Below are positions 3,901 through 41,247 of a stretch of DNA of 59,185 nucleotides, piece after piece. Position numbers and translations under genes: made by a program. The notes under the pieces were generated by a model. That model was not told the origin of the DNA and did not search any database. It saw nothing but the letters and a program-made list of their open reading frames with translations. Numbering within the stretch: position 1 is the first letter of the stretch; every line of letters begins with the position of its first letter. The stretch spans positions 1-59,185 of the forward strand of contig CALXVS010000006.1 of NCBI GenBank assembly GCA_944392145.1, written 5' to 3'. The DNA is from an uncultured Alphaproteobacteria bacterium. GTDB taxonomy: Bacteria; Pseudomonadota; Alphaproteobacteria; CAAHEQ01; UBA3637.

Positions 3901-3998
3901 AGTTCTTATGTGATTATGGTTATATTGTACGAAGAACGTATTCATCAATTGATAACATAATAGAAAGGGCTTCACAAAAAAGGAATTCGAAAGGATAA
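936..3998 (+). CDS. large protein of unknown function in BREX type 4 operon
   Basis: I do not recognise this 1020-residue protein. Residues about 48-150 (IWSGKECALLIVALEDIYF, later YRNEAGIALQM) resemble a domain seen attached to HNH and other restriction proteins, possibly DNA-binding. A charged linker covers about 155-245. Residues about 277-322 (RRMMSAQPESLVSIARHFNV, then SEIADIEKSLYSRIK) look like the region-4 helix-turn-helix of sigma factors. The C-terminal half is alpha-helical with patterns that suggest repeated winged-helix units. There are no obvious membrane segments. AGGGG lies before the ATG, and the next gene starts 4 bases after the stop. Its position directly before brxP implies a role in the same defence system, perhaps DNA recognition. 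Confidence 0.75.
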   Translation: MNFILSKAKQLLASLKTQELETAPAVKRTPVSPQQKDKSKQAEIVELRKRNIWSGKECALLIVALEDIYFGKKERADVIAKLSSKLRSMGRINGANVGDLYRNEAGIALQMLKMEFLLTEGKKGLSGASKAFERIYELYKTDIDAFNKEFSLESNGLFAPKKTEHVENQSKKPVVVVIKKRKMLSTQNNMADNENNKVNDQRVSSETQSTDSEEKWKSLDGIIANYLTTPEPEIKSEEPIKEEQSYAVELGGILSSMSNELDDFYNKFYVGGKKQYIITRRMMSAQPESLVSIARHFNVLESEIADIEKSLYSRIKGILEAYKEKIKSLFEQYKHPLECNSTGCFDWRKYYVLLNNLSSFTEFFVDINSNKLIKVQKLGAINPVVARDGDSSKLEKQQELQEIAPSNQASITGSKAVAFDVGQYFEEVHGWSSLYSSVFNLMIKKYKQLKPYPDTIVVSYTKGTKKGRYVKLINGLLLNVNYSAVAVMQRISELLDCYGITPDQCTIYLENNQGQTAKIKLSNGSNEPAFNVFEATDTQKSDATVKYSDLSQKTHTVLCEKYQKGFRLDSHLEKERFKLFFEQIHSEKIPEEISEKLLDQLILKNGIVYNDRVYIAENMLDENTKADLFAFISQSFDHGHNTIYYTALFEEFSDKFLTQSIFDPDILREYLKYENTGKYYVFKEYLSKDRSVNQSISDEIIQLLVDRSEPFFQDELSAMLPHIDKNKLIKELRSSSEFISNGKEQYFLARNFNITNDEIETVKKLISDLLDASSTHFITAAEVMEIIHKKVPEIFENNGFISELGVRNALASILGDSFSFNSNVISGKDTNLNLNDIFEDFAKNTSSFSLAELKNLASEFSAPIYFDAINKYAIRISKDEFIGKDKIDFNFKEIDHAISLFCQAGYTPIQAVNTFASFPDVGYKWNTFLLESYLQNYSPAFRLFQASACETKSVGAIVKKTSAYTSFDDILVDAVAKSRCQLQKDTILQFLCDYGYIVRRTYSSIDNIIERASQKRNSKG

Positions 3999-4001
3999 TT
4001 G

Positions 4002-6413
4002 ATGTATTCATATACTTGGGACACAGAAACTGGCGGACTTTTATTAAATACTTCTCCTTTGCAATTTAGCAAAGAGCCAAGACCTGTGTACGCAAAAGAA
4101 TTAGACATACTCGGTTTTAATAAGTACTGGGCGTATGATCCAAACAGTAATGCACCGTATATGTGGGCTGAATCCAATACATATATTTATAAAGGGCGTG
4201 TCGTTGCTCGAACAAAAGGCGGTAGTCTTTATACTCGTCCAGAGATCATCTTGGAAGGTGAACCGGAAGAACCAGGAAAGAAACTTGAGCCCGTTAATAT
4301 TGAGCGTATGGTTGAAAAGAACCAAGAAATACTTGATACCCTCACTCAGGAAACGATAAAAAAAATCTATAATAATTATATAAATTATAGAAATAAAGTT
4401 GATGTTTTTTATGTAGCATTTAGCGGTGGTAAAGATAGCGTTGTAGCATTGGATCTTGTACAGAGAGCATTACCCCATAATGACTTCAAGGTTATTTTTG
4501 GCGATACAGGAATGGAATTTCCTGATACTTATAACGTTGTTGAAAAGATATCAAAGTTTTGTGCTGACAACAACATCGAATTCCTGCGCGCCAAGTCAAA
4601 ACTTATGCCAGAAAACACCTGGAAGGCGTTTGGTCCACCTGCTGTAACAAACAGATGGTGCTGTAGCGTTCATAAAACATCGCCTCAAATTATGTTGCTT
4701 CAATTGAAAACACACATCCAAGGGTTTACTGGAATGGCATTCACAGGCGTTCGCGGAGATGAAAGTGTTTCAAGAAGTGAATATGATGACATTAGTTTTG
4801 GTCAAAAGCATAAAGGACAGTACAGTTGCCACCCGATATTAGAGTGGAATACTGCAGAGCTATTTCTTTACATATACAAAAACCATTTGATTTTGAATGA
4901 ATCCTATCTGAAAGGTAACAGCCGCGCGGGATGCTTAGTTTGTCCTATGTCATCTGGAAAACATGAGTTTATGAAAAACCAATGCTATCCGGCTGAAATG
5001 GAAAAGTTTATAGAAAAAATACGAGCTACAAGCGGAAAATCTTCTTTTTCAGAAGGTGAAATGACGAAATTTATAGAGGATGGAAATTGGAAAACACGCA
5101 GAAGTGGCCGCGAGCTTAATTTTGGATCCGATAAGCATATTATTGAACGTGTAGATGGTAACACAGTCATAACGGTATTAAAATATAATACTCGCTGGAA
5201 AGAATGGGCAAAAACCATTGGTAAATTTATAGTTATTTCTGACGATAAATATTTAATCGATTTCAACGATTTCACATATGAGGTTAATTTAAAGTACGAC
5301 AATGATAAAGCTGTTTTTACATTCCCCAATTGTGGTACCTCAAAATCTGATGTAAAATTCTTATCGCTATTCAAAAGCGTTATAATTAAGAGTATTTATT
5401 GCGTTAATTGTGGTGTATGCGTAGCTGAATGCACCAATGGCTGTATTGATATGTCAGACGGCCAATTAAAAATATCTGACGATTGTAAACATTGTTATCA
5501 GTGCCATGAGGTTCACGAGCATTGTTTGCGATATAATTCTATTAGAAACAAAATAAACATGGAGAAAAAAATGAAAGGCCTAGATAGATATTTCAGTTTT
5601 GGAATTCGTAAAAGTTGGATTGATTATTACTTCAAGGATGAGGGCTTGGAGGAGTTTTGGGACACAGATGGGCATGGAGCCGTTCCAAACAAGAAGAAAG
5701 ATGCCTTTCTTAATTTCTTAAAAGATGCAGACATGGTTATTGCATCAAAGGGCGATGCCGGCAACAAATATACGAAATTTAAACCTTCTAATTTTTCTTG
5801 CATTCTGTTTGGCTTGGGATCAGATAACGAAAGTGCTTGGGCATTAATGCTGTCCAATCTCGTGTATACTTCGGAATTTAATTGGTTCATAAAAAATCTA
5901 CCATTAAATGAAAATATGAACTTGGATCGTGTAAAATATCTCTTAGAAGATGTTATGGAAGGAGATACTAAAGGATTAGGAAAACGCAATATTTGTGATG
6001 CTCTTAAAGTTTTCATTACAAAAACTCCATTCTCAAAAATAGGCCTTGGGATTGGGGATTATACAGAAAAAGCATCTTCATCAGGAAATGAAAAAATAAC
6101 TTTGAATTCATTTTGTCGGACAGCCTGGGAGAATCCGGATCCGAAAGTAGTTTTATATTCTCTCTATAAATTTGCCGAGAAATGTGGAAATTATTATCAA
6201 TTTACTCTCTCTCGTCTTTTAGATCATACGATTGAAAGTGATGGAATAAGCCCCACAGAAATTTTTGGTTTAGATAGAGAAACAATGGAAAAAATTTTGA
6301 ATGGATTGTCTGTAAATTACCCAGATTTCATCTCGGCATCTTTTACGCTCGATCTTGATAATATAACTCTTAAAAGTGATAAAACATCAGAAGATGTGTT
6401 ACAATTGTTCTAA
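4002..6413 (+). CDS. brxP: BrxP: PAPS-reductase-family protein with ferredoxin-like domain
   Basis: This 803-residue protein carries the PP-loop SGGKDS (about residues 141-146) of the PAPS reductase/DndC family, which activates a substrate by adenylation for sulfur transfer. FGDTGMEFPDT follows, then the pair of cysteines in NRWCCS (about 220-221) and CLVC (about 311-314). Around 467-508 is a ferredoxin-like cluster, CVNCGVCVAEC and then CKHCYQC, which could bind one or two 4Fe-4S centres. I chose the ATG at 4002 over the TTG at 3999 because AAAGGA (3990-3995) is then well spaced. brxP is the marker gene of type 4 BREX. With a cysteine desulfurase in the operon, sulfur modification of DNA is a reasonable inference. 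Confidence 0.88.
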   Translation: MYSYTWDTETGGLLLNTSPLQFSKEPRPVYAKELDILGFNKYWAYDPNSNAPYMWAESNTYIYKGRVVARTKGGSLYTRPEIILEGEPEEPGKKLEPVNIERMVEKNQEILDTLTQETIKKIYNNYINYRNKVDVFYVAFSGGKDSVVALDLVQRALPHNDFKVIFGDTGMEFPDTYNVVEKISKFCADNNIEFLRAKSKLMPENTWKAFGPPAVTNRWCCSVHKTSPQIMLLQLKTHIQGFTGMAFTGVRGDESVSRSEYDDISFGQKHKGQYSCHPILEWNTAELFLYIYKNHLILNESYLKGNSRAGCLVCPMSSGKHEFMKNQCYPAEMEKFIEKIRATSGKSSFSEGEMTKFIEDGNWKTRRSGRELNFGSDKHIIERVDGNTVITVLKYNTRWKEWAKTIGKFIVISDDKYLIDFNDFTYEVNLKYDNDKAVFTFPNCGTSKSDVKFLSLFKSVIIKSIYCVNCGVCVAECTNGCIDMSDGQLKISDDCKHCYQCHEVHEHCLRYNSIRNKINMEKKMKGLDRYFSFGIRKSWIDYYFKDEGLEEFWDTDGHGAVPNKKKDAFLNFLKDADMVIASKGDAGNKYTKFKPSNFSCILFGLGSDNESAWALMLSNLVYTSEFNWFIKNLPLNENMNLDRVKYLLEDVMEGDTKGLGKRNICDALKVFITKTPFSKIGLGIGDYTEKASSSGNEKITLNSFCRTAWENPDPKVVLYSLYKFAEKCGNYYQFTLSRLLDHTIESDGISPTEIFGLDRETMEKILNGLSVNYPDFISASFTLDLDNITLKSDKTSEDVLQLF

Positions 6414-6424
6414 CGGAGAATAAA

Positions 6425-9400
6425 ATGTTACAAAAATACCGCGAATACTTTAATATTGACCCAGACTTTTTTGCTCAAGTAAATGAGGCCGTTATCGAAA
6501 CTCAGCCAAATATTTGGCAAAAATACTATCCACATGCCACATTTGTGAAGCTTATTAAAGACACAGTCTCCGTTTTATCCAGACAGCAAAAATTGTCAAT
6601 ATGGGTTGAGGGGGCATATGGAACAGGTAAATCTTATGCTGTTTTAACTTTGAAGAAATTACTTGATGCTAATGAAAAGGATACGAAGGCATATTTCGAA
6701 AAATATAACTTGGATAATGATTTACTGAATAAGTTCCAAGGAGAAAAGAATAGCGGTAAAATTTTGACAGTACACAGATATGGATCGGCAAGTATTCGCG
6801 GCGATAACGATCTAGTTTTAGCTATTCAAGAAAGTATCGAAAAAGCATTAAATAGTGAGGGAATCGAAAATCAAGGACCTAATACCTTGAAAAACGCAAT
6901 CATTAAATGGCTTTCTGATACTGATAATAAGCACTTTTTTAATGCTCTTATTACCGGAAGCTATTCAAAATTGTTTGGTGGTGATACCGTTGATATAATC
7001 ATTAATAAGTTGCAGACATATACAGACGATGCTCTGCAAACGCTTATGGATCAGATTTTTAAAGTTGCAAAGGAACGTCAAATAAATGCATTTACATTGA
7101 CAACTACAGATTTGTGCAATTGGATTAAAGAAATTATAAAAGCCAATGGATTAAAAGCGATTGTTTTTATTTGGGATGAATTCACTGAGTATTTCAATAA
7201 TAACCTTCGTGGCTTAACTGGTTTTCAAGAAATTGCTGAAATATCTGCAACAGATCCTTTCTATTTAATGATTGTAACTCATAAAAGTGCGGCTCTATTT
7301 AGCGATGCAGATAAGGATAAAAGAAAAATTCTTGATAGATTTATAAGTCCTACCTGTATGATCCAGTTGCCTGAAAATATTGCTTTCCAACTCATGGGAG
7401 CGGCAATGGAAAAAAATCAGGACCCAAGTGTTTTAGCAGATTGGAATGCTACAGTTACGGACCTTTATGATAGAACACGCGATTCACGTAAAATTATCAA
7501 AGATATCGTTAAAATCAGTGATGATGAACTGATGAAGATTTTACCTATCCATCCTTACACAGCACTCTTGCTGAAACATATTTCATCAGGTTTTGATTCA
7601 AACCAACGGAGTATGTTTGATTTTATTAAGAACGATAGAGGTGAAGAAATAAAAGGATTCCAGTGGTTTATTGACAACTATGGTCCATTGGATGCAAATC
7701 CTTTGTTGACTGTGGATATGCTTTGGGATTTCTTCTATGAAAAAGGTCGTGCATCACTATCAACAGATATTCGAACCATTTTGGACTGTTATGCAAGGGC
7801 TGAAACTAAACAGCTCAGTTCAGATGAGAAGCGTGTGTTAAAAGCTGTATTACTTTTACAGGCTATTTCACAGAAAGTGGGCGGATCTGTTGAATTTTTC
7901 GTTCCAAACGATAAAAATATCAACAATGCATTTGAAGGAACAGATATTGAACGTGAAGCTGCCCGTATTGCGGCAAAATTAGAACGTGACAAAATTATTT
8001 ATAAAAAGTCGTTGGGCGGTGGAGAGTTCCAGTATTCTGCATTAACAGGTGGTGTTGATACGGGAAAAATTGAAGAGATAAAAGAACAATTAAAGGATCG
8101 TCCAACAGCAACACTTATTCAAGAAGGAAGTCTCTCCAGTACACTTAATCTGCCAAAATCATTAGCTCTGCGCTATTCTATTTCCTATGCGAGCATTTCA
8201 GATTTTGATACAGTAATCAAGAGATTGAGAGCTGAAGAAGATAAATATCTGAACAAGCTCTGTGCTGTTGTAACTCTTGCAAAGGACGATAACGAAGCCG
8301 CTACGCTTAATAAAAAGATTAAGGATGCTGTCAGCGATGGCAGTTACAAGATGATCTTTATTGATGCAACAACAACACCGATGGGGCGCGATGCAATTGA
8401 ACAGTATTGCGAAAATAAGGCGAATGCTCAATATCAAAATGGTAAAGATAATAATCAAGCTAGAACGTATGATACCTATGCGTTGCAGGTTCTCACGTCC
8501 TGGAGAGATAGAATTGCTAAAGGCGAGTTTTTAGTGTTTTCTCAAGACCTGCCGGATGGTAAGCGTTTCGCTTCAGCTGATGGTTTATATTCGTACCTAC
8601 AGGATGTAAATCTTCATAAGTTCCCATATTGCTTGGAACAATACACAGTAACGGATAGTATGTATCAATTATCTTCGCTCAAAATGGGTGCTGAATGTGG
8701 TGCAAAACAAGATACAATGGGTATTTTCAAATCAGCGAACCCAACAACAAAATTGGAAGAAGCATTAAAGGGAGCTTGGAAAGTAAACGATTATTGGAAA
8801 ACAGCTCCAAACCTCATGCCTATTTCCAAGATAAAAATTGCTGTAGAAGAAAAAATCGTGCACTCTTTTAAGGAAGAAGGCCGTGTATCTGTGACGGATA
8901 TATATAGCATGCTTAAGCAGGAACCATATGGTTTCTTGCCATGCAACTTAACAGCTTTTGTATTGGGCTTTGTATTAAAAGAATATGTGGATGGTTCATA
9001 TACATGGAGTGATGGCCTAACAAATGATGCTTTCAATATAGCAAAACTAAAAGAGGTTATTGATGAAGTCATCAAATTAGATGTCACTCCAAATAACCGC
9101 TTTAAGGACAAATATATTGTAACGATGACAGCTGAAGAAAAGGCATTTAATGAGGCAACTGCTTCCGCCTTTTCAATCCCGGCATCATTCTGCACGTCTA
9201 TTGAACAAACACGTGAACGCATTCGCGGTAAAATGAAAGAGCTTTCTTTCCCTGTTTGGGTATTACAGTATATTCTGGACAATGAGCCGCTAACTACTGA
9301 TAAGCAGGTAATTTCAACACTTATTGAAAATTATAGTTACATTGCAAATAATAATAATGCTCATGTAAATAAAACGGATAGTGATATTGCTCTTGAAATT

Positions 9401-10618
9401 GGAAAGCTCTGCATAAAAAATCCTAAAGCAGTGAATGATTTACAAAGCTTGTTTACAAAAGAAAAGTGTACAAGCGGTATGATTGCGTATTTGGATCAAT
9501 TTAAGGATGGTGAACTTCCAAGATTGGCCAACGAGATCAAGGATAATCATTTCTATGTTAATGCCTTGAGAAATAAGTTTGATGCAGATGCCGCAAATTG
9601 GGTATGGAACAAGGAAACAGCCAATCAAAAGATTGATGAAATGATTGTGGAATATAAAATTATTGCCGAGAGCAACAAAATCATGTCATCACAAAATACG
9701 AATTTTGCAAAAGCGTTGGCTGATTGGTCTGAAAAATGCAACTATATTCGTATTTCATATCCGATGTGTAAGGAAAAAATAGGAGATGCAACTGAGCTAT
9801 TTGATATTCTTTATGAATTGAGAAGAAATGGCGGTCACCTAGCTGAAGCACAAAAATCCAAGTTCTTAACGGCTCTCTCTAAATACGGAACTGAGTTTAG
9901 AACGTTCTTTGAAAATCAGTCATCATATTTCAAAGATGTTTGCGCATTTTACATTGATGGATTCGCTGATGATGAAATAAACGCGATCTTTGCGCAGCTT
10001 CCACTTGGATCCTTTAGCAAAGAGAAATCTGAGTATACTAGCATTGTCGCAAAAGTTGCTGAGGATTATAAAAACTCTCTTGGCTATTCTAAACTCAAAA
10101 AATTGTGGAAGGATAAAACAAAAACTACATCGCCAGCAGAATGGTCAGAGAAGTATAAAATGCCAATATTTGCCTTAATTGATGACGACGATATGCAAAG
10201 AGCTCATCAAGCCTTTGATGTGTTAAACAAGCCGCATCCTGACAACGAATCAGTTAAAAAGGCAATGGAATTCTTAGAAAATGGAAATTTCTATGACCGC
10301 CTAAACGATGAAGATAAACGGGATACAGCCTTCAAGAATACAATAATAAACGAATATTCTGTGATACTTCAAGATGTGGATGCTGTTAAAAATTATTTAT
10401 ACGAAAAAGTTGGAACAGAGCCATATTTGTGGCTTGGTATTCCGGAAGTGAAAAAGAAAATTCAACAGCTTGCAGAGGCTCAATATAACAAAAACGGTTA
10501 TGAAAAAGCCCTTGCAAAAATTGATAAGATGGATACTGAAGACGTAAAATCCTATATCAAGAAATTAATTAAAGATGATATGATTTTGGGTATTCAAATT
10601 ATTAAGAATAGTCATTAA
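6425..10618 (+). CDS. brxC: BrxC-like P-loop ATPase of BREX
   Basis: A 1397-residue ATPase with Walker A GAYGTGKS at about residues 63-70 and a Walker B-like strand IVFIWDEFTEYF near 245-256, matching the large BrxC/PglY ATPases (usually 1100-1400 residues) that are core to BREX. The remainder is long, helical and poorly conserved, as in the family. GGAG lies 7 bases before the ATG, and the gene follows brxP by 11 bases. In BREX the protein is needed for both modification and phage exclusion; its exact activity is not settled. Confidence 0.88.
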   Translation: MLQKYREYFNIDPDFFAQVNEAVIETQPNIWQKYYPHATFVKLIKDTVSVLSRQQKLSIWVEGAYGTGKSYAVLTLKKLLDANEKDTKAYFEKYNLDNDLLNKFQGEKNSGKILTVHRYGSASIRGDNDLVLAIQESIEKALNSEGIENQGPNTLKNAIIKWLSDTDNKHFFNALITGSYSKLFGGDTVDIIINKLQTYTDDALQTLMDQIFKVAKERQINAFTLTTTDLCNWIKEIIKANGLKAIVFIWDEFTEYFNNNLRGLTGFQEIAEISATDPFYLMIVTHKSAALFSDADKDKRKILDRFISPTCMIQLPENIAFQLMGAAMEKNQDPSVLADWNATVTDLYDRTRDSRKIIKDIVKISDDELMKILPIHPYTALLLKHISSGFDSNQRSMFDFIKNDRGEEIKGFQWFIDNYGPLDANPLLTVDMLWDFFYEKGRASLSTDIRTILDCYARAETKQLSSDEKRVLKAVLLLQAISQKVGGSVEFFVPNDKNINNAFEGTDIEREAARIAAKLERDKIIYKKSLGGGEFQYSALTGGVDTGKIEEIKEQLKDRPTATLIQEGSLSSTLNLPKSLALRYSISYASISDFDTVIKRLRAEEDKYLNKLCAVVTLAKDDNEAATLNKKIKDAVSDGSYKMIFIDATTTPMGRDAIEQYCENKANAQYQNGKDNNQARTYDTYALQVLTSWRDRIAKGEFLVFSQDLPDGKRFASADGLYSYLQDVNLHKFPYCLEQYTVTDSMYQLSSLKMGAECGAKQDTMGIFKSANPTTKLEEALKGAWKVNDYWKTAPNLMPISKIKIAVEEKIVHSFKEEGRVSVTDIYSMLKQEPYGFLPCNLTAFVLGFVLKEYVDGSYTWSDGLTNDAFNIAKLKEVIDEVIKLDVTPNNRFKDKYIVTMTAEEKAFNEATASAFSIPASFCTSIEQTRERIRGKMKELSFPVWVLQYILDNEPLTTDKQVISTLIENYSYIANNNNAHVNKTDSDIALEIGKLCIKNPKAVNDLQSLFTKEKCTSGMIAYLDQFKDGELPRLANEIKDNHFYVNALRNKFDADAANWVWNKETANQKIDEMIVEYKIIAESNKIMSSQNTNFAKALADWSEKCNYIRISYPMCKEKIGDATELFDILYELRRNGGHLAEAQKSKFLTALSKYGTEFRTFFENQSSYFKDVCAFYIDGFADDEINAIFAQLPLGSFSKEKSEYTSIVAKVAEDYKNSLGYSKLKKLWKDKTKTTSPAEWSEKYKMPIFALIDDDDMQRAHQAFDVLNKPHPDNESVKKAMEFLENGNFYDRLNDEDKRDTAFKNTIINEYSVILQDVDAVKNYLYEKVGTEPYLWLGIPEVKKKIQQLAEAQYNKNGYEKALAKIDKMDTEDVKSYIKKLIKDDMILGIQIIKNSH

Positions 10619-10631
10619 AAGGAGAGAAACT

Positions 10632-12917
10632 GTGAAACTGGATCTTGCTTTTACAAAAATTGATAAATATTTACAATCAAAAAAGTCCCAACCAATAATT
10701 GTGGACATACAGAATGGTATTGATTTTGAGAAATTAAAAGAACGGTTTCCCAGTTCGTTTTATTCCTATAAAAATGCAGGAAGTTACTGCAAAAAAGACT
10801 CTTATTGTCGCTTGGATAATTTAAAAAATGACCTGGCAAAATCAGAAGATGATTTATTCATAACGGGTCTTTCAACTTTTCTAAGATTGCAAGGAAAGGA
10901 AGAATTGCGGTCACAGCTTCGTGTTCTTCTTGATTTGTCTACTGAGAGCCATGTAGTGATAATAACATATCAGTGTTCTAAGTATCTTGATTTTCATGAT
11001 AAGCGTCTTTACGATGCTAATCGGATAATAATTGTTGAAGGCGAACCTGATTATATTCCCGCATTAACTCTTGTATCGCCTAAAATTTCGCTCGATAAAG
11101 TGTATTCGTACACTGGAATTAATAGTCTTGATCAAGCCGTAGAATTTAATCCAAGCGACAAAGTATTCCTTTCCACCAAGCATACTGAGTCAGATTTTCC
11201 AAAATCACTCCTGCAAATTTCAACCGTTTCAAGCGCATATGATATAATTAAAACGTACGAAGATAGCATATCTCTTGTTAATGATGATTTCGGAACAGTT
11301 GATGAGTGGTCTGAATTATTAAAACGCCTTCAAGAAGCTGATGGATGGGAAACGCTTATTTCAAATGAATTTGGGGGTATTCAAAATTTACCATTTAGAA
11401 TAGATGCTTATGCAGGTTTTGATGAGTTTAAGAAGTGGTTATATGTTCTTATGCTGAAATTATACAGCTCAGAAATCGTAACAGGATACCTTTCCAAAAT
11501 ACTACAAAGGGTTTCGTCGTACAAAGATTTTGTTTCTGCGCTCTTTCAAACCATCTTAAATTTTGATCATACAGACTCAGAATTTAGTAGTTTGTACCTA
11601 GAGAGAAAATGTATATTGAAAAATTTTGCTAAAGAAACAGAAGAAATATGCGAATACTGTAAATTGGTATCAGCTAAAGGGAAAAGCGGCCTTTTCTATT
11701 TGACTGACAATACCAACCTTGAAAAACAAACTGTAATCGGATTATTGGGGCGATATGCTTCTGAACTTAACGCAAATGATATTAATTCAATCCTGAAAGT
11801 AGTTTATCCGGATTTATACTCATATATGGGAGAATATAATTTTGAACACCCGCTTTTGAAGGGATATTTCCAAGCATATAAGTATCAAAAGCTTTTCAAC
11901 CACATTTCTTCGGATTTTGCAAAAGTAGTTGAAGAACAAGCTATCAAACGTGAGTATAACTCTATTTTGCGTCCACGAGTTTCATATCTCGAAAAAATTG
12001 ATACGAAAAATACCATTGTTTATTTCGTGGATGCACTGGGAGTTGAGTATTTGAGCTTTATCATTGCACAGTGTAATAGTAATAATTTGTTTGCGAACGT
12101 GACAGTTTGTCGTTCTGAATTACCTTCTATAACCTGTATGAATAAGGAGTTTGTTGATGTATTTAGTTCAGCAGGCTGTAAAATCATTGATATAAAAGAC
12201 CTTGATGAATTAAAACACCACGGAACGAATGATTTTGATTATCAGATTACGAAAGAACCAATACACTTAATTGAAGAATTAAGCATCATTGCTAATGTTC
12301 TAGAAAAAATCCGTACAAATATCGCTAGTGGAAAATGTGAAAAGGCAATTATAATCTCTGATCACGGAGCTAGTAGATTAGCTGTTATTAACGAGACAGA
12401 AAATAAATATGAGATGTCCGAAAAAGGTGAACATTCAGGTAGATGTTGCCCTGTTTCAGATATTGATGAAAAACCTGAGTTTGCAACAGAGGAGAATGGC
12501 TACTGGGTATTGGCTAATTATGACCGGTTTAAGGGTGGAAGAAAGGCCAATGTGGAAGTGCATGGTGGTGCGGCATTGGAAGAAGTTTGCGTGCCTATAA
12601 TTGAAATCTCACCGAAAAATGAAAAGATTGATGTTCGTATACTGGATTCTTACAAGAATATAACGGTAAGCTTTAGAAAATCTGCTCTTATTAAATTCTT
12701 CATAAACAAGAAGCTGAACAATCTAAAAATTAAAATTGAAGGTAAGTATTATGATGCTCAGCCAACTGCAGAGGAGTTTGTGTATCAGGTAAATATGCCG
12801 GATATCAGGAAGGCAAAGCATTATATATTTGACGTTTATGCATCGGAAAATCTGATTGCATCCGGTTTGCAATTTAATGTCAAAAGTGAAGTAATAGTTG
12901 AAAAAGATCTATTTTAG
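10632..12917 (+). CDS. pglZ: PglZ-domain protein of BREX
   Basis: A 761-residue PglZ protein. The C-terminal alkaline-phosphatase-like domain starts near residue 464 (IVYFVDALGVEYLSFI) and includes IIISDHGASRLAV around 570-583, the metal-binding motifs of the superfamily. A later H-G-G cluster (VHGGAALEEVCVP) fits the same fold. The start is GTG at 10632 with GGAGAG at 10621-10626. PglZ is the hallmark gene of all BREX types and is thought to be a phosphodiesterase-like or regulatory enzyme. It lies in the expected order brxP-brxC-pglZ-brxL. Confidence 0.92.
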   Translation: MKLDLAFTKIDKYLQSKKSQPIIVDIQNGIDFEKLKERFPSSFYSYKNAGSYCKKDSYCRLDNLKNDLAKSEDDLFITGLSTFLRLQGKEELRSQLRVLLDLSTESHVVIITYQCSKYLDFHDKRLYDANRIIIVEGEPDYIPALTLVSPKISLDKVYSYTGINSLDQAVEFNPSDKVFLSTKHTESDFPKSLLQISTVSSAYDIIKTYEDSISLVNDDFGTVDEWSELLKRLQEADGWETLISNEFGGIQNLPFRIDAYAGFDEFKKWLYVLMLKLYSSEIVTGYLSKILQRVSSYKDFVSALFQTILNFDHTDSEFSSLYLERKCILKNFAKETEEICEYCKLVSAKGKSGLFYLTDNTNLEKQTVIGLLGRYASELNANDINSILKVVYPDLYSYMGEYNFEHPLLKGYFQAYKYQKLFNHISSDFAKVVEEQAIKREYNSILRPRVSYLEKIDTKNTIVYFVDALGVEYLSFIIAQCNSNNLFANVTVCRSELPSITCMNKEFVDVFSSAGCKIIDIKDLDELKHHGTNDFDYQITKEPIHLIEELSIIANVLEKIRTNIASGKCEKAIIISDHGASRLAVINETENKYEMSEKGEHSGRCCPVSDIDEKPEFATEENGYWVLANYDRFKGGRKANVEVHGGAALEEVCVPIIEISPKNEKIDVRILDSYKNITVSFRKSALIKFFINKKLNNLKIKIEGKYYDAQPTAEEFVYQVNMPDIRKAKHYIFDVYASENLIASGLQFNVKSEVIVEKDLF

Positions 12918-12929
12918 AAAGGAATGTCC

Positions 12930-14375
12930 ATGTCAATAGATGAAAAATTGAAAGAATATTTTGATGAAATGGTTGTTTTTAAGGATCTTAAAAAGAGCAA
13001 TTTTTTTAGTGCCTTGAGTTTGCCTTCCTTCTTGCGCGACTGGCTGTTAAAGAAATTCGAAGATTCTCAAGGTGAATTTAATGTTGAGGATATCTCTGCC
13101 TTTATAAAGACCTACATCCCATCAAAGAACGAATGGACAAGCATAAAAAATAGGATTGTTTATGAAAATGAGCATGTCAAATTTTTAACTAAAATATCAA
13201 TTGATATTAGTATTAAAACCCAAGAAATAAGCTTTTCTCTTCCTGATTTTGGTTTAACAACAAGGGAAACCATCATTGAACCAAATGTATGGGAGAACTG
13301 TAAGAATGAGCTTGTTAACGGGAAAGATACGTGGGGTGTTGTTGAGCTTGGTTATAAGTTTCCAGATGAGGAGAAAAAAATTCCTGGTAAAATTAAACTA
13401 ATTAGTTTTACAAATTTCTGTCCTTATACGGTAGATTTGGAGTATTTCAAGGATGTCCGCAAAGAATTTACTGTTCAAGAATGGCTGGATGTGATATTGG
13501 GTGCAATCGATTACAATGCCAGCGGATACGAAAATGAGGATCAAAAACGGTCAATGATCACTCGATTGTTGCCATTCGTAGAAAAAAGGATTAATTTGAT
13601 AGAACTGGCTCCAAAAGGAACCGGAAAATCATATTTGTTCGGTGGAGTCAGCAGATTTGGTTACCTTGCGTCAGGCGTTATGTCTCGTGCTAAGTTGTTT
13701 TTTGATCTAAGTCGCAGAACAAAAGGACTTGTTTACAACTATGATTATGTCGCTTTTGATGAAATTCAAAAGCTTGCATTCGTGAATTCCGATGAGATTA
13801 GTTCAACTTTGAAAGGCTACATGGAACAAGGAACAATCTCTTTTGGAGGCCATGAGGGATCTGCGGATGCCGGAATTATACTTTTGGGCAATATCATGCA
13901 AGAAAATATGGATGAATACAAAAATATGTTTGTCAATCTTCCTACTGTTTTCAAGGAAAGTGCTTTACTAGATCGTTTCCATGGTTTCATTCGTGGATGG
14001 GATATCCCGCGTATGCATGATGATCTTAAAATCTCCGGGTGGGCATTGAATTCTGAATATTTCTGTACAATGCTACACTTGCTTAGAGAAGATGCAAGTT
14101 ATCGTGCAATAGTCGACCAAATTCTTGAAGTGCCTGAGCGAGCAGATACCCGTGACACAGAAGCGATAAAGAGAATAGCGACTGGATACCTCAAGTTGCT
14201 TTTCCCACACGTTCGCTCGCCAAAGGATATCAATGCTCTTGAATTTACTAAGTATTGTTTACGTCCTGCTACGAAGATGCGTCAGATAATTAAAATGCAA
14301 TTGGGTATTTTGGATACAGAGTATAAAGGAAAAGATGTACCGACATTGACTGTTAGGAGTGAATATGGCAACTAA
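12930..14375 (+). CDS. brxL: BrxL-like AAA+ ATPase, short form
   Basis: This 481-residue protein has the BrxL ATPase core: ELAPKGTGKSYLFGGVSRFG around residues 229-248, then VAFDEIQKL as Walker B and ILLGNI as a sensor strand. I prefer the ATG at 12930 because AAAGGA (12918-12923) is then 6 bases away; the ATG at 12924 would sit directly on it. Classical BrxL proteins run to about 680 residues and carry a C-terminal Lon-like domain. Here the protein ends shortly after the AAA+ part and I see no Ser-Lys protease dyad. BrxL proteins are thought to act as DNA-binding rings in exclusion. Confidence 0.87.
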   Translation: MSIDEKLKEYFDEMVVFKDLKKSNFFSALSLPSFLRDWLLKKFEDSQGEFNVEDISAFIKTYIPSKNEWTSIKNRIVYENEHVKFLTKISIDISIKTQEISFSLPDFGLTTRETIIEPNVWENCKNELVNGKDTWGVVELGYKFPDEEKKIPGKIKLISFTNFCPYTVDLEYFKDVRKEFTVQEWLDVILGAIDYNASGYENEDQKRSMITRLLPFVEKRINLIELAPKGTGKSYLFGGVSRFGYLASGVMSRAKLFFDLSRRTKGLVYNYDYVAFDEIQKLAFVNSDEISSTLKGYMEQGTISFGGHEGSADAGIILLGNIMQENMDEYKNMFVNLPTVFKESALLDRFHGFIRGWDIPRMHDDLKISGWALNSEYFCTMLHLLREDASYRAIVDQILEVPERADTRDTEAIKRIATGYLKLLFPHVRSPKDINALEFTKYCLRPATKMRQIIKMQLGILDTEYKGKDVPTLTVRSEYGN

Positions 14376-14568
14376 CTGTGTGGCCTGTGGAAAAGAAAAC
14401 CTTGATAAGGATACAATCGGCATTAATAAAAAATTACTTGGTTTAGATATTGCAAATTTTTATTGCTTAGATTGCCTTGCGGAGTATCTTGATTGTACCG
14501 TTCAGGAACTTTTGGATAAAATCGAGGAATTTAAAGAGGAAGGTTGTAAACTGTTTGAGGGAAAGTAA
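14365..14568 (+). CDS. 4-cysteine zinc-ribbon-like mini-protein in BREX operon
   Basis: A 67-residue protein with CVAC (residues 5-8) and CLDC (34-37), the spacing of a small zinc ribbon, plus two further cysteines. AGGAG at 14355-14359 precedes the ATG at 14365, which overlaps the end of brxL by 11 bases, so the two are translationally coupled. I do not recognise the family. Its position between brxL and the cysteine desulfurase suggests a partner in sulfur handling or DNA binding. Confidence 0.75.
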   Translation: MATNCVACGKENLDKDTIGINKKLLGLDIANFYCLDCLAEYLDCTVQELLDKIEEFKEEGCKLFEGK

Positions 14569-14569
14569 A

Positions 14570-15718
14570 ATGGTAAATAAAAAATTTATATATGCAGACC
14601 ATGCTGCTACTTCAGCCTTGGATCCTGAAGCTTTTGAAGCTATGAAGGAGTTCCTGGTGGACAATTTTGCAAATCCATCCCAACCATATTCATTTGCAAG
14701 AAATGCAAAAAAAGCAATTCAAAATGCTAGAAAAACAATAGCAGAATGCATTAATGCTGATGAAGACGAAATATTTTTTACTTCATGTGGGACAGAAAGT
14801 AACAATTGGGTCATTAAAAGCATATTATACCAAAATCAAAAAAAGGGAATTATAACCTCGAACATCGAGCATCATGCAATTTTAGAAACTTGTAAAAGGA
14901 TTGAAAAATTTAAAGATTATTACTCAACTTATATTCAAGTAAATTCCAATGGACTTGTGAATCCTGAGGCACTAAAGAAACAATTCAACATATATAATGA
15001 CGTTTATCTTACATCAATAATGTACGCAAACAATGAATACGGTGCGATTCAGCCAATCAAGGAATTAGCCTCTATTAGTCATCAAAATGGATCATTATTC
15101 CACACTGATGCTGTACAGGCTGTTGGACATGTTGCACTTGATGTTAAAGATTTGAATGTGGATATGCTTTCTTCGTCTGCGCATAAATTTAATGGGCCAA
15201 AAGGAATTGGTTTTCTCTATGTCAAAAAAGGCCTAGATATTCCTTCATTAATTAATGGAGGATCTCAAGAAAAAGGTAAACGCGCTGGGACGGAAAATGT
15301 TGCTTCAATAGTTGGTATGTCAACAGCTCTCAAGAATAACTGCAATAAATTAAAAGAAAATGCTCAACACATCATAGAGCTTGAAGAAGTTTTCCTCAGA
15401 AAATTAAAAGAAAGCAATCTTGACTTTATATGCAATACAAATGTTAACCATATTCCTGGAAATATAAGCCTTTCATTCAAAGGAATATCAGGAGAAACGT
15501 TAATGCATAGGTTGGATCTTAAAGGAATTATGGTATCCACAGGATCTGCCTGTGACAGTGTAAAAAATCAAACATCTCACGTAATAAAGGCTCTTGGAGT
15601 TCCAGAAGACTATGCCTACGGTACAATCCGTATATCTTTAGGAAAGGAAAATACGGAAGACGAAATTGAAGAAATTTTTATTGCGATCTATGAAATTGTT
15701 AAATCTCTTACTGCTTAG
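14570..15718 (+). CDS. cysteine desulfurase (NifS/IscS/DndA family)
   Basis: A PLP enzyme that takes sulfur from cysteine and holds it as a persulfide. The 382 residues fit the family. Motifs are YADHAATSAL at the N-terminus, SNIEHHAILE, HTDAVQAVGH, the PLP lysine in SAHKFNGPKG (about residue 204), and the active-site cysteine in STGSACDS (about 325). The ATG at 14570 begins one base after the preceding stop, with GAGGGAAAG upstream. Being last in the BREX operon, it probably feeds sulfur to BrxP as DndA does to DndC. A separate housekeeping IscS is expected elsewhere; this copy looks dedicated. Confidence 0.9.
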   Translation: MVNKKFIYADHAATSALDPEAFEAMKEFLVDNFANPSQPYSFARNAKKAIQNARKTIAECINADEDEIFFTSCGTESNNWVIKSILYQNQKKGIITSNIEHHAILETCKRIEKFKDYYSTYIQVNSNGLVNPEALKKQFNIYNDVYLTSIMYANNEYGAIQPIKELASISHQNGSLFHTDAVQAVGHVALDVKDLNVDMLSSSAHKFNGPKGIGFLYVKKGLDIPSLINGGSQEKGKRAGTENVASIVGMSTALKNNCNKLKENAQHIIELEEVFLRKLKESNLDFICNTNVNHIPGNISLSFKGISGETLMHRLDLKGIMVSTGSACDSVKNQTSHVIKALGVPEDYAYGTIRISLGKENTEDEIEEIFIAIYEIVKSLTA

Positions 15719-15934: not shown

Positions 15935-16870
15935 TTACTTTCTTTTATCAAAATCTTCCGGTTTTATAACCTTTACATGCTTACCCCATGTGTAAAGGTG
16001 CCAATCCATTTCAAGTGCGCCGCCGGCCCGGAATTTAACTGTTAAGGTGCCGTCCGGATTGCGGATTGCTTCTTGCTTCGGATGAAATGTATATTGAGCC
16101 GCAGAATCAGCAACTTCAGCATCAAACAGCCACTCAACATCAAATGGCTTTTCTTGGTAAACACCAAAGGCTTGTTCGCTGAACTCCTTAAGAGAGAAAT
16201 GAGGATCACGCTTAAAGTACGTATTCAATACCTCAATTTCTTTTATTTTATTTAAATTAAAATGACATATCTTGCGCTTTGTTGGATCCCAGGCAATTAA
16301 ATAGTGCTTATTTCCATACAAAAAGCCATAAGGGAACAGCTCGCGCCAGTCCTTGTTGTGCGCAGAATCGTATTTTATTTTAATGCGGTTGCACGCAATA
16401 ATTGCGTACCGGAGCTGTTTTAAGTGTTCTGTATTGATGATAATCTTTGGTCCGGGTCGGAAAGCATATCCCTCAGCTTCCAATAGTGCTTCGGCATCCG
16501 GTTCTATCCTATTTGTGGCATCTTTACCGATGATGGCTTTTATTTTATGTAAAACTGTATCAACGTAATGCGCATCTATCATGCTTTTTGATGATAAAAG
16601 TTTGGATGCATTTTGTAGGGCATGGATCTCTTCCATAGAAAAATTGACCATTTCGCGGCCGGTCCCCTTAGGTAAATACCAACGTTTTGTATTATAACGA
16701 CCGTTAATTTCTTTTAATTGATGGTATTTATCGGCGATAGAATCTTTCATACGAACCGCTGTCCGGAGAGAGACATCATACTTTTCCATGATGTCTTTAA
16801 GAGAAACGCCGTCATCTGTGTCCTGCATCCACAAAATCAGGTCATTGAGCGTCTGCGTTTTTTTATACAT
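15935..16870 (-). CDS. WYL-domain transcriptional regulator
   Basis: A 311-residue regulator: an N-terminal helix-turn-helix (residues about 1-65, with GVSLKDIMEKYDVSLRTAVR) and a WYL-type sensor domain from about 140 (RIKIKYDSAHNKDWRELFPYG...NKHYLIAWD) with a C-terminal extension. WYL proteins such as BrxR and CapW control defence islands, often sensing nucleic acid or nucleotides. GGAG precedes the ATG. It faces the BREX operon tail-to-tail and has its own consensus promoter. It is therefore a candidate regulator of the BREX locus or of the small gene at 17029. Confidence 0.85.
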   Translation of the reverse strand: MYKKTQTLNDLILWMQDTDDGVSLKDIMEKYDVSLRTAVRMKDSIADKYHQLKEINGRYNTKRWYLPKGTGREMVNFSMEEIHALQNASKLLSSKSMIDAHYVDTVLHKIKAIIGKDATNRIEPDAEALLEAEGYAFRPGPKIIINTEHLKQLRYAIIACNRIKIKYDSAHNKDWRELFPYGFLYGNKHYLIAWDPTKRKICHFNLNKIKEIEVLNTYFKRDPHFSLKEFSEQAFGVYQEKPFDVEWLFDAEVADSAAQYTFHPKQEAIRNPDGTLTVKFRAGGALEMDWHLYTWGKHVKVIKPEDFDKRK

Positions 16871-17424: not shown

Positions 17425-17453
17425 TTGCGTTTGTTATTAACATCGGGTATAGT
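17425..17453 (+). promoter_or_regulatory. promoter of structured RNA copy 1
   Basis: TTGCGT (17425-17430) and TATAGT (17448-17453) are 17 bases apart. The predicted start, about 17460, falls at the first base of the first hairpin of the RNA. Confidence 0.75.
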
Positions 17454-17459
17454 ATATCC

Positions 17460-17685
17460 CGTTGTGATGGCCCAATCACAACGTGGGTATACAAAGCCTA
17501 GATCTGTTAGGGCACTCGTTCACACAATGCGTGTGTGAATTACCATTGGTGTGAAACGATTGTTAATCGGGCATCTACTCGTTATGGGTGGATGCCAGTG
17601 AATAAGGCTTCGCCCAAATAGCTGGGCTACTTGTCTAACAGATCGTAGTTTGTACATCCACCCGCCTGAAACATGGCGGGTTAAA
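17460..17685 (+). ncRNA. structured leader RNA, copy 1 (unrecognised family, pseudoknotted)
   Basis: Elements in order: hairpin 17460-17483 (CGTTGTGAT/ATCACAACG, loop GGCCCA); long helix in two parts, TACAAA 17490-17495 with TTTGTA 17649-17654 and GATCTGTTAG 17501-17510 with CTAACAGATC 17635-17644, around a small internal loop; a variable hairpin near 17519-17541; hairpin GGCATCTAC 17570-17578 with GTGGATGCC 17588-17596; hairpin GCCCA 17612-17616 with TGGGC 17623-17627. The 3-prime arm GGGTGGATG (17586-17594) is also exactly complementary to CATCCACCC (17655-17663), a pseudoknot. That segment overlaps a terminator-like hairpin (17660-17666 with 17675-17681), which here lacks a U-tract. The SLOG gene starts 28 bases later. 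The copies at 37539 and 41241 keep every helix with different bases. Confidence 0.85.
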
Positions 17686-17708
17686 ACTATGGGCTGAATG
17701 GATAAGTA

Positions 17709-18161
17709 ATGGCTATATGCACGTTCTTTGGTCATAGATACGCACCGCTTACAGAAGCAGAGAAAGAAAAATTAACTGCTTCAATTACCGACCTTATCGT
17801 AAATCACGATGTTACTGAATTTTGGGTCGGCGCCAAAGGCGAATTTGATTCCCTTTGTAGCTATACAGTCAGACAACTCAAAGAAAAATTCCCAAACATA
17901 AAACTGGCACTTGTTTTATCCTATGTTCCAACAAATAAAGAGGATTACGAGTGGAAAGAGCGTTATTATGATCATATCTTTTTACCAGACGGTGTTGAGG
18001 TTGGTCCTCAGCGATTTGCGATCACAAGGCGTAACCGTTGGATGTCTTTCAACACAGATTACATGATATGTTACGTTAAGCGCGATTATGGAGGAGCCTA
18101 TGTCGCTATGAAAACAGCGTTGGCCCACAAAAAAAAGGTGATAAACATATGTCAAACATAG
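17709..18161 (+). CDS. SLOG/DUF1273-type Rossmann protein, copy A
   Basis: A 150-residue protein of the YpsA/DUF1273-like branch of the SLOG superfamily, nucleotide-binding Rossmann folds. Visible family features: FFGHR near the N-terminus, EFWVGAKGEFDS (about 39-50), the strand IKLALVLSYVPT, QRFAITRRNRWM, and the C-terminal CYV...YGGAYVAMKTA that probably binds a nucleotide. Molecular function is unknown for this branch. It directly follows the structured RNA and overlaps the next gene by 13 bases, so it is coupled to endonuclease I. Paralogs lie at 37766 and 40556, each behind the same RNA. Confidence 0.85.
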   Translation: MAICTFFGHRYAPLTEAEKEKLTASITDLIVNHDVTEFWVGAKGEFDSLCSYTVRQLKEKFPNIKLALVLSYVPTNKEDYEWKERYYDHIFLPDGVEVGPQRFAITRRNRWMSFNTDYMICYVKRDYGGAYVAMKTALAHKKKVINICQT

Positions 18162-37532: not shown

Positions 37533-37538
37533 CAGTTC

Positions 37539-37745
37539 TGTTAGGACAGCCCAAGTTCTAACAAGGGAGTACAAACCCTGATTCTCGTGGGCAAGGGACT
37601 TTTGTATTATTGAAAGTTTCTTTGTTTGTGGGCATCTCACCGTTTGGTGGGTGCCGGCGATATAAGGCATGCTCGAATAAACCGGGCTACTTTTCACGAG
37701 ATTCGTAGTTTGTAACACCCACCGCCTTCTGGCGGTGTTTTGTTT
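37539..37745 (+). ncRNA. structured leader RNA, copy 2
   Basis: Same plan as copy 1. First hairpin GTTAGGAC 37540-37547 with GTTCTAAC 37555-37562, loop containing GCCCA. Long helix TACAAAC 37570-37576 with GTTTGTA 37708-37714, and TCTCGTG 37583-37589 with CACGAGA 37695-37701. Hairpin GGCATCTCACC 37631-37641 with GGTGGGTGCC 37646-37655. Hairpin GCTCG 37671-37675 with CGGGC 37683-37687. Pseudoknot GGTGGGTG 37646-37653 with CACCCACC 37716-37723. Terminator CACCGCC 37720-37726 with GGCGGTG 37731-37737 and TTTT, sharing four bases with the pseudoknot. Nearly all helices differ in sequence from copy 1 but keep pairing. Confidence 0.87.
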
Positions 37746-37765
37746 GGGCTGACAGGTAATTCAGT

Positions 37766-38215
37766 TTGAGCATCTGCGCGTTCTTTGGCCACCGTGACAC
37801 CCCTATGTCCAGCAACATAGAGCGACATTTAGAGGAAGTTATCAGAGATTTAATAGCCCAAGGGGTAGATGAATTTTGGCTGTGCGAGCAAGGCGCATTT
37901 GATTGTATGGCGCGCCTTACCTTGAAAGAATTAAAAAAGGAGTTTAAAGGGATCTCCCTGTGCTTGCTTCCGGCATATCACCCCAGTGAGGCTAAAATGG
38001 TGTGGGTTGATGCGCAAGATTACGACTTGATATACCCCGATGAAGTGGCCAATGCTCCACCTCAGGTTGCCATTTTACGGAGAAACGACTACATCGCCAA
38101 GAATGCGGATTACATTGTTTGCTATATCACCCATAATTCCGGTGGCGCTTATAAGGCTGTCGAAAAAGCCCGAAAACATAAAAAGAAGATAATTAACCTG
38201 GCCGAGTATGTTTAG
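37766..38215 (+). CDS. SLOG/DUF1273-type Rossmann protein, copy B
   Basis: A 149-residue paralog of the protein at 17709, with the same landmarks: CAFFGHRDTP, EFWLCEQGAFDCM, PPQVAILRRNDYI and CYITHNSGGAYKAVEKA. The start is TTG at 37766, which lines up the N-terminus with copy A; the leader RNA ends about 20 bases earlier. A 62-base gap separates it from the kinase-ASCH gene, and the following three genes overlap by 4 bases, so all four may form one operon under the RNA. Confidence 0.85.
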   Translation: MSICAFFGHRDTPMSSNIERHLEEVIRDLIAQGVDEFWLCEQGAFDCMARLTLKELKKEFKGISLCLLPAYHPSEAKMVWVDAQDYDLIYPDEVANAPPQVAILRRNDYIAKNADYIVCYITHNSGGAYKAVEKARKHKKKIINLAEYV

Positions 38216-40555: not shown

Positions 40556-41011
40556 CTAAGAATTTGCCAAATTGATGATTGTTTTACCAGCGCTTTTTGC
40601 TATGCGTACAGCCTGATAAGCGCCACCGCTTTTGGTATCCACATAGCAAACAACAAAATCCGCATTTTGAGCCAACCACTTATTTCGCCGACAGATGGCA
40701 AAGCGCAAAGGTCCTTCTTCAATTCCTTCAGGACAAAAAACATGGTCATAGCTACTTTTTTTCCAATCATAGTCCTCTTGATTTGTGGGCAAATACGCCA
40801 ACGCTAAAGAACGCGTAATAGTGGGATGTTCCTTTTTAATACTGCGTAAAACTTCAAAGGCTAGATGGTCAAAATCGCCGTAGCCGCCCAGCCAAAATTC
40901 ATCCACACCTTTGGAACGGATCAGGTCTAATATCACATCAGTTAAGCCGGCCTTAACTAGGCTCTGGTTGGGAATAAAGCGATGGACGAAAAAGACACAA
41001 ATCTGTCCCAT
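40556..41011 (-). CDS. SLOG/DUF1273-type Rossmann protein, copy C
   Basis: A 151-residue paralog of the proteins at 17709 and 37766, with EFWLGGYGDFDHL, LALAYLPTNQEDYDW, LRFAICRRNKWLA and CYVDTKSGGAYQAVRIA. The N-terminal GHR of the others is VHR here. It is closer to copy A than to copy B in the central part (PTN..DY.W). GAGG lies 5 bases before the ATG at 41011. The structured RNA lies immediately upstream. Confidence 0.86.
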   Translation of the reverse strand: MGQICVFFVHRFIPNQSLVKAGLTDVILDLIRSKGVDEFWLGGYGDFDHLAFEVLRSIKKEHPTITRSLALAYLPTNQEDYDWKKSSYDHVFCPEGIEEGPLRFAICRRNKWLAQNADFVVCYVDTKSGGAYQAVRIAKSAGKTIINLANS

Positions 41012-41033
41012 GGATCCTCATATCAACCCTACC

Positions 41034-41241
41034 AAAAACCCGCCATTTACAGGCGGGTGGATGTTTACAACTATAACTTATGTGAGAAATAGCCCAGTTT
41101 ATTTGGGCGAACCCATATTCACTGGCATCCACCCATTATGGATAGATGCCTACGACAAACATTTGGCACAAGATATGCCGATGTATGCCCACATAAGTTC
41201 TTGGATTGTAAAGTCCACAGTTCAGACGGGCAGTCCGAACA
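41034..41241 (-). ncRNA. structured leader RNA, copy 3
   Basis: Minus strand, same plan. First hairpin GTTCGGAC (41240-41233) with GTCTGAAC (41227-41220), loop TGCCC. Long helix TTTACAA (41212-41206) with TTGTAAA (41070-41064), and AACTTATGTG (41199-41190) with CACATAAGTT (41084-41075). Hairpin GGCATCTATCC with GGGTGGATGCC (41150-41124). Hairpin GCCCA with TGGGC near 41106-41092. Pseudoknot GGGTGGATG (41134-41126) with CATCCACCC (41063-41055). Terminator ACCCGCC (41058-41052) with GGCGGGT (41044-41038) and a run of T, sharing bases with the pseudoknot. Confidence 0.87.
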
Positions 41242-41247
41242 TCAAAT

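Follow-up and report, generated by a model that had tools for sequence, protein, structure and literature searches.

A family of leader RNAs with a C4-like layout and two competing folds in gut Alphaproteobacteria

RESULTS

Three structured RNAs upstream of SLOG genes

The window (the whole stretch of 59,185 nucleotides that was analyzed, contig CALXVS010000006.1 of an uncultured alphaproteobacterium) contains three copies of a structured RNA, each followed by a gene for a SLOG (YpsA-like) protein. Three models were used to describe these RNAs: R1, built from an alignment of 20 RNAs taken from the SLOG loci of relatives; R2, which is broader than R1; and R3, a model of the C4-like body. The features of the three loci are as follows.

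17448..17453, +, TATAGT, -10 element of the promoter of copy 1 (from the sequence)
17457..17692, +, whole leader RNA of copy 1 (R1 and R2 matches of 157 and 116.5 bits)
17460..17483, +, 5' hairpin of copy 1, counterpart of the c4-a1b1 hairpin (fold, covariation)
17490..17495, +, a1 site TACAAA of copy 1 in the loop of a small hairpin, pairs with a' (covariation; a1 position as in phage P1)
17501..17510, +, b1 site GATCTGTTAG of copy 1, pairs with b' (covariation)
17570..17580, +, local 5' partner (P5 strand) of the central strand of copy 1 (fold, P5 pairing)
17586..17667, +, C4/sRNA-Xcc1-like body of copy 1 (R3 match of 58.2 bits)
17586..17594, +, central strand GGGTGGATG of copy 1, 5' side of the C4-like stem (covariation)
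17627..17630 and 17645..17648, +, arms CTAC and GTAG of hairpin P8 of copy 1
17635..17644, +, b' CTAACAGATC of copy 1, in the loop of P8 (P8 conservation)
17649..17654, +, a' TTTGTA of copy 1 (covariation)
17655..17663, +, CATCCACCC of copy 1, 3' side of the C4-like stem (covariation)
17660..17681, +, 3' hairpin of copy 1, ACCCGCC (17660-17666) and GGCGGGT (17675-17681), without a U-tract
17709..18161, +, SLOG gene after copy 1 (PF06908, 21.6 bits, below the cut-off of 27.7)
37536..37749, +, whole leader RNA of copy 2
37645..37728, +, body of copy 2 (R3 match)
37646..37653 and 37716..37723, +, stem strands GGTGGGTG and CACCCACC of copy 2
37720..37726 and 37731..37737, +, arms of the terminator hairpin of copy 2, followed by the U-tract TTTTGTTT
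37766..38215, +, SLOG gene after copy 2, with a TTG start (PF06908, 23.3 bits, below the cut-off)
41244..41027, -, whole leader RNA of copy 3
41134..41051, -, body of copy 3 (R3 match)
41134..41126 and 41063..41055, -, stem strands of copy 3
41058..41052 and 41044..41038, -, arms of the terminator hairpin of copy 3, followed by five U
41011..40556, -, SLOG gene after copy 3 (47% identical to the first SLOG)

All three copies fold far better than their own shuffles (z scores of -6.7, -6.1, and -8.0 for copies 1, 2, and 3), and the bodies of all three are matched by R3. In copy 1, GGGTGGATG is complementary to CATCCACCC, and the last four bases of CATCCACCC (17660-17663) are at the same time the start of the left arm of the 3' hairpin. 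The original prediction regarded this long-range pairing as a pseudoknot that excludes the hairpin through four shared bases in each RNA, and the shared bases are indeed seen in all three copies. It also described a T-tract after the hairpin in copies 2 and 3 and none in copy 1, with the SLOG gene starting 20-30 bases later: the hairpins of copies 2 and 3 are terminator-like by the terminator scan, the lack of a T-tract in copy 1, which lay outside that scan, was noted by eye, and the SLOG genes start 26-28 bases after the hairpins.

Distribution of the RNA family

R1 matches were found in 39 of the 43 genomes of the order, with up to 36 copies in one genome; order-level and family-level searches gave the same set of 43 genomes. 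With the broader model R2, 39 of 385 genomes of the class Alphaproteobacteria gave a match; since no more than six candidates per genome were scored in this search, its copy numbers are lower bounds. In a draw of 398 genomes from the phylum, the 4 with a match all belong to this class. The SLOG-type core is seen in named records too, most of them gut and rumen alphaproteobacterial MAGs, including Azospirillum sp. CAG:239 and RUG410. No published account of the RNA in these organisms was found in the part of the literature that was covered. These RNAs constitute a large, previously unnamed leader family in small-genome gut Alphaproteobacteria.

In most copies the downstream gene does not encode a SLOG protein. 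The genes, named by sequence inspection and with few Pfam matches, encode lipoproteins, outer-membrane-barrel-like proteins, pilin-like proteins (GRSMVEMLG), glycosyltransferases, small helix-turn-helix proteins, and others. Since other genes follow most copies, a SLOG-specific element is ruled out, and the proposed control of SLOG expression in particular is not supported for the family. A phage origin of the window copies was also considered and rejected: the pattern GGGTGGATGCCNGN{1,3}AATAAGG was found in 28 genome contigs, mostly of gut or rumen alphaproteobacterial MAGs, and in no viral contig.

Covariation of the rival pairings

The long-range helix between the central strand and its 3' partner is 97.3% canonical, compared with 78% after shuffling (190 distinct RNAs, 125 at less than 80% identity), and its strands comprise about 55 different nine-mers. 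In the class-level alignment A4, 96.4% of cells are paired, against 72% when shuffled and 37-49% when slid by one to three columns; in alignment A6 the values are 99% and 85% shuffled. Pairing and covariation relative to shuffled and slid controls rule out chance complementarity. This helix is part of neither covariance model used for aligning, and its count does not lean towards it, whereas the counts for the hairpin and for P5, the helix of the central strand with its local 5' strand (88.6% paired in A4, with covariation), lean upward because the alignments were fitted to those helices. Three further helices are well paired in A4: the 5' hairpin (94.8%, with 7 of 7 pairs covarying), a1:a' (92.6%, with covariation), and b1:b' (95.2%, with 10 of 10 pairs covarying). 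Hairpin P8, with arms such as CTAC/GTAG or CCGT/ACGG, carries b' in its loop and covaries as well; 114 of 125 RNAs have it in full, compared with 67 when shuffled. Conservation is strong in the AATA internal loops around P6, and the a1/a' and b1/b' pairs are copy-specific and among the most variable parts of the RNA.

The four shared bases pair completely with both rivals in 81 of 102 non-redundant RNAs, and two of the shared columns covary with both partners: 443/444 with 533/531 in the hairpin and with 282/281 in the long-range helix (A4). The overlap on which the predicted switch depends is thus conserved across the class. The central strand pairs with the local 5' strand as well; therefore, three partners are in competition, with the long-range helix serving as the stem of a nested alternative. 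Both folds are visible in the covariation of the same bases, which makes these leaders a case of an RNA switch whose mechanism can be tested by designed compensatory mutants.

Two alternative folds

The helices are sorted into two folds: (i) fold 1 consists of the 5' hairpin, a1:a', b1:b', P5, P6/P7, and the 3' hairpin, and (ii) fold 2 consists of the 5' hairpin, the a1 hairpin, the long-range stem, P6/P7, and P8. Each fold is nested and nearly every helix of one clashes with a helix of the other, so the two are alternatives rather than parts of a pseudoknot. Of the originally predicted pseudoknot, the long-range helix itself is real and covarying; the topology is better read as the stem of an alternative nested fold. 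A pseudoknotted form holding a1:a', b1:b', and the stem together may also occur. Kissing of the 5' hairpin loop with GGGCA was examined too and is not claimed, being weak family-wide (at least four bases in 20% versus 9%).

Folding energies were calculated with ordinary nearest-neighbor parameters that ignore pseudoknots. By these energies, fold 1 is the minimum free energy structure of the whole leader, with P5 in 112 of 122 RNAs and the 3' hairpin in 110 of 122; imposing the long-range stem costs the whole leader a median of 16 kcal/mol (n = 122), and a transcript ending just past the stem also prefers fold 1. When the body is cut at the central GG, the stem is preferred in 87 of 122 RNAs, and in 119 of 122 if the right arm of the hairpin is lacking. 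Of the window bodies cut in this way, that of copy 3 favors the stem; once the right arm is removed, those of all three copies do.

Comparison with C4 and sRNA-Xcc1 RNAs

The c4 locus of phage P1, annotated with a1, b1, C4, a2, b2, and icd, matches the Rfam families C4 (68.8 bits) and c4-a1b1 (51 bits). The leaders share its element order: promoter, hairpin, a1, b1, body with b' and a', 3' hairpin, and gene. Within this order the window RNA and P1 correspond in sequence of parts, from a1 in a small loop through b1, the local 5' strand, the 5' side of the stem, two hairpins with b' in the second, and a' to the 3' side of the stem. As in C4 and c4-a1b1 (RF03163), a1 and b1 lie upstream and are complementary to a' and b' (93-95% paired, covarying). 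For a putative RNase P cut before the GG of the stem, the sequence context, an initial GG with RCC following the stem, recurs in 55 of 89 RNAs. In P1 itself, upstream sequence forms a hairpin with the C4 5' strand, and a 3' hairpin overlaps the C4 stem, so that the stem has the same two competitors in both systems, a local 5' partner and a 3' hairpin. The link to P1 rests on layout, because the models score P1 low: R2 places the elements of P1 8228-8429 in register at only 5.9 bits, and R3 gives a non-significant 8.4 bits for P1 C4. Conversely, the C4 model (RF01695) finds nothing in the 43 genomes of the order at E 0.001, and its best score among the broader relatives is 29.0 bits, below the gathering score of 45.

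The leaders differ from P1/P7 C4 in being chromosomal, present in many copies, placed before diverse genes, and missed by the C4 model, with ribosome-binding site (RBS) targets that are weak or absent: a2/b2 complementarity at the RBS of the next gene is at background in the window copies, and family-wide b2 is absent and a2 is found in a minority. Nor do the window copies precede a phage antirepressor gene; they precede SLOG genes. One RNA of the same genome (L254, contig C10, 1381-1640) differs in both respects. It lies directly before a phage Rha gene (PF09669), the only one to do so, and scores 48.8 bits with sRNA-Xcc1 and 29.5 bits with R3; CTAAACA (a1/a2), complementary to its own a', occurs both upstream and downstream, and b2 ATACAAGA at the Rha start codon is complementary to the b' loop. 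By its sequence, this locus is a canonical C4 arrangement.

The link to sRNA-Xcc1 (RF02221) rests on score as well as layout. The window copies match no Rfam model. In a permissive Rfam search of the broader relatives, sRNA-Xcc1 was matched at full length, best by L198 (51.7 bits, E 3e-7), with other relatives at 31-37 bits; the gathering score of 53 bits is reached by none, including the two best, L198 and the RNA before the Rha gene. Applied to genomes, the model finds 68 places in 26 of the 43 genomes of the order, all below the gathering score, and none in 14 control genomes. These matches, to relatives rather than to the window copies, are significant and full-length (E down to 6.7e-8 per genome), and many of the places are RNAs found independently by R1. 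The model aligns to the 3' half of the leader, and its outer helix is exactly the long-range helix. Element-by-element alignment and covariation recover its closing stem, AATA-looped hairpin, second hairpin (P8), and linker, and the location upstream of a gene is shared: in Xanthomonas cassettes, sRNA-Xcc1 precedes symE (PMC12444791). Unlike sRNA-Xcc1, the family described here has a long 5' domain closing fold 1, mostly lacks b2/a2, usually has a U-tract terminator overlapping the stem, and scores below the gathering threshold.

A draw of 398 genomes from the phylum yielded sRNA-Xcc1-like RNAs in 58, with 39 over the cut-off. Members over the cut-off in other Pseudomonadota have a1/b1 upstream and often a2/b2 downstream. 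At 16 loci (12 from the over-cut-off set), the complements of a' and b' average 7.1 and 6.9 bases upstream, compared with 4.6 and 5.5 in mismatched pairs, and 5.6 and 6.3 bases downstream, compared with 4.6 and 5.2. These sRNA-Xcc1 RNAs over the cut-off (L258-L268) appear to be C4-type, having target sites upstream as well as at the RBS of the following gene; Rfam separates the two families. A single layout links C4, c4-a1b1, and sRNA-Xcc1, which are separate Rfam entries, and a divergent C4-like form is present in nearly every genome of an alphaproteobacterial order.

C4-like RNAs are listed for beta- and gammaproteobacteria and phages in the part of the literature consulted (PMC5320573, citing Weinberg 2010). 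The group 1 C4-like sRNAs of Acinetobacter baumannii, with 21 copies in the genome, are processed from longer transcripts (PMC5320573) and resemble the present family in their many copies per genome; in contrast to that gammaproteobacterial group, the copies described here precede many kinds of genes and have the terminator overlap as a conserved output. The novelty lies in scale and output: the RNA occurs in 39 of 43 genomes, in as many as 36 copies, and the genes that follow include those for SLOG, pilin, lipoprotein, and barrel proteins, in most cases behind a U-tract terminator.

Output at the downstream gene

A TATAAT-like element (at least five of six bases) is found just upstream of 67 of 125 RNAs, versus 21% of random windows. 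At least five U follow the hairpin within nine bases in 113 of 125 RNAs (mean 6.1, compared with 2.8 further on). An ATG open reading frame of at least 60 amino acids starts 8-60 bases downstream in 95 of 124 non-redundant RNAs, versus 20% at random points, and on the divergent side in only 5 of 124; the median distance to the gene start is 30 bases (interquartile range 26-32). These values agree with the predicted role of the RNA as the leader of the following gene.

Family-wide, the a'-CATCC segment is complementary to the RBS region above background: the longest match is 5.4 bases versus 4.5 in mismatched pairs (p = 2e-12), and the duplex energy is -10.0 versus -7.8 kcal/mol. The RBS covaries with the body strand, GGAAG occurring with CTTCC (10 of 23) and GGAGG with CCTCC (6 of 14). 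A downstream b' site is absent family-wide (3.99 versus 3.95 in mismatched pairs), and downstream a' sites are enriched in a minority only. None of the three window copies has RBS complementarity above background. For copy 1, which lacks a U-tract and had been suggested to act on translation instead, mismatched pairs reach the same or greater stability in 32% of cases, so this ordinary complementarity lends the suggestion no support. Four other SLOG copies without a U-tract do show RBS complementarity, and when only SLOG copies are compared, RBS matches are better in those lacking a U-tract (7 versus 7, p = 0.004; the sequences are related). No such trade-off between U-tract and RBS match is seen family-wide (p = 0.88). 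The most economical reading is that the C4 body and its upstream targets were retained in the leaders, but that in most of them a terminator competing with the stem took the place of the RBS target.

Proposed mechanism and alternative explanations

Comparison of the sequences shows the two folds and the overlap between them, as well as the C4 layout and the location before genes. On this basis, we consider it probable, with some reservation, that the RNAs are leaders of the C4/sRNA-Xcc1 type, in a long alphaproteobacterial form with two mutually exclusive folds, that act by self-specific repression or attenuation. In fold 1, a1:a' and b1:b' would form together with P5 and the 3' hairpin, which serves as a terminator where a U-tract follows; this fold would be the default in the nascent leader and would stop transcription before the gene. 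Cleavage before the central GG, as performed by RNase P for P1 C4, whose b' loop covers the RBS (PMC5320573), or alternatively any event occupying a1/b1, could release the body into fold 2. There, the central strand and CATCCACCC would close the C4-like body, breaking the 3' hairpin and exposing b' in the P8 loop as well as a', and the body could bind the a1/b1 sites in other leaders and, for a subset of the RNAs, the RBS as well. The net effect would be repression or attenuation through RNA-RNA recognition that does not require a small-molecule ligand. Control by RNA pairing is favored because the homologous systems work in this way and because the recognition strands differ between copies.

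The original prediction invoked a ligand or protein favoring the pseudoknot. In a riboswitch of this kind, a small molecule or ion would stabilize the long-range stem as an antiterminator and turn the gene on, as in fluoride and ZTP riboswitches. Sharing of a pseudoknot-like strand with the terminator is a known layout of these two classes (PMC8752731, PMC11077080, PMC10085676), their long-range helix sharing a strand with an intrinsic terminator as observed here (PMC11077080, PMC10085676). The conserved AATA loops also fit an aptamer, yet the same loops occur in the sRNA-Xcc1 model. Second-messenger riboswitches have spread as many copies per genome before surface genes, a pattern similar to the present one; against c-di-GMP there is the weak argument that one genome (G028, 98% complete) with five RNA copies encodes no GGDEF protein, such proteins being present in 41 of the 43 genomes of the order. 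Unlike in fluoride and ZTP riboswitches, the recognition strands vary by copy, the reverse of an aptamer core, and no Rfam riboswitch, and hence no fluoride or ZTP aptamer, is matched. As the homologous families are antisense RNAs arranged for RNA-RNA pairing, no ligand is indicated, and we regard a ligand-responsive riboswitch as unlikely.

Two other explanations retain the RNA-based character of the element. The RNA could be a stand-alone trans-acting sRNA ending at its own terminator, with the downstream gene read from elsewhere and its nearness incidental. It has its own predicted promoter and terminator; in some loci the terminator is separated from the SLOG gene by a repeat (L009, L027) or a small open reading frame (L008); and sRNA-Xcc1 is described as trans-acting in a title cited in PMC12444791. 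However, the tight distance to the gene start and its excess over random points, as well as the covariation of the RBS with the body strand, make such independence improbable. Alternatively, the strict P1 C4 mechanism might operate by RBS capture only, the 3' hairpin merely protecting the 3' end. The family-wide RBS match, the better matches of SLOG copies without a U-tract, and the canonical C4 locus in the same genome speak for it; the family-wide absence of b2, the three window copies without an RBS match, and the lack of anticorrelation between U-tract and RBS match render it very unlikely. For C4-type attenuation by RNA pairing, a wider scenario can be drawn, which we offer as a conjecture more doubtful than the mechanism itself: in this gut alphaproteobacterial order, a phage-type immunity RNA may have become a genome-wide set of dozens of self-specific RNA attenuators with private a1b1/a'b' pairs and the C4 stem coupled to a terminator, and processed RNAs or relatives may switch surface, pilus, DNA-handling, and defense-like genes in trans.

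Genomic neighborhoods

Upstream of copy 1, the window contains a BREX anti-phage operon, an aminotransferase class V gene, and a gene for a WYL-domain regulator (936-15718 and 15935-16870). The BrxP, BrxC, PglZ, and BrxL components were called by PADLOC and Pfam, and the WYL-domain regulator gene is directly upstream of the RNA. An Endonuclease I gene (PF04231, 18149-18901) overlaps the end of the SLOG gene of copy 1; at another locus (L041), an Endonuclease I-like protein is encoded directly after an RNA copy, without a SLOG gene. After the SLOG genes of copies 2 and 3 come genes (38278-40033 and 40014-40481) that look nucleotide- or phosphate-related: AAA/ASCH, NUDIX, AAA_33/zeta-like kinase, and LMW phosphatase.

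A fourth SLOG-associated copy of the RNA is located elsewhere in the same genome (L004, contig C4), near genes that by eye are lysis-like and reverse transcriptase-like. The repeat between terminator and SLOG gene at L009 and L027 is an interspersed palindromic repeat. RNA copies are often tandem or lie near MAG contig ends (L062, L063, L068, L069, and others), which suggests repeats or mobile neighborhoods.
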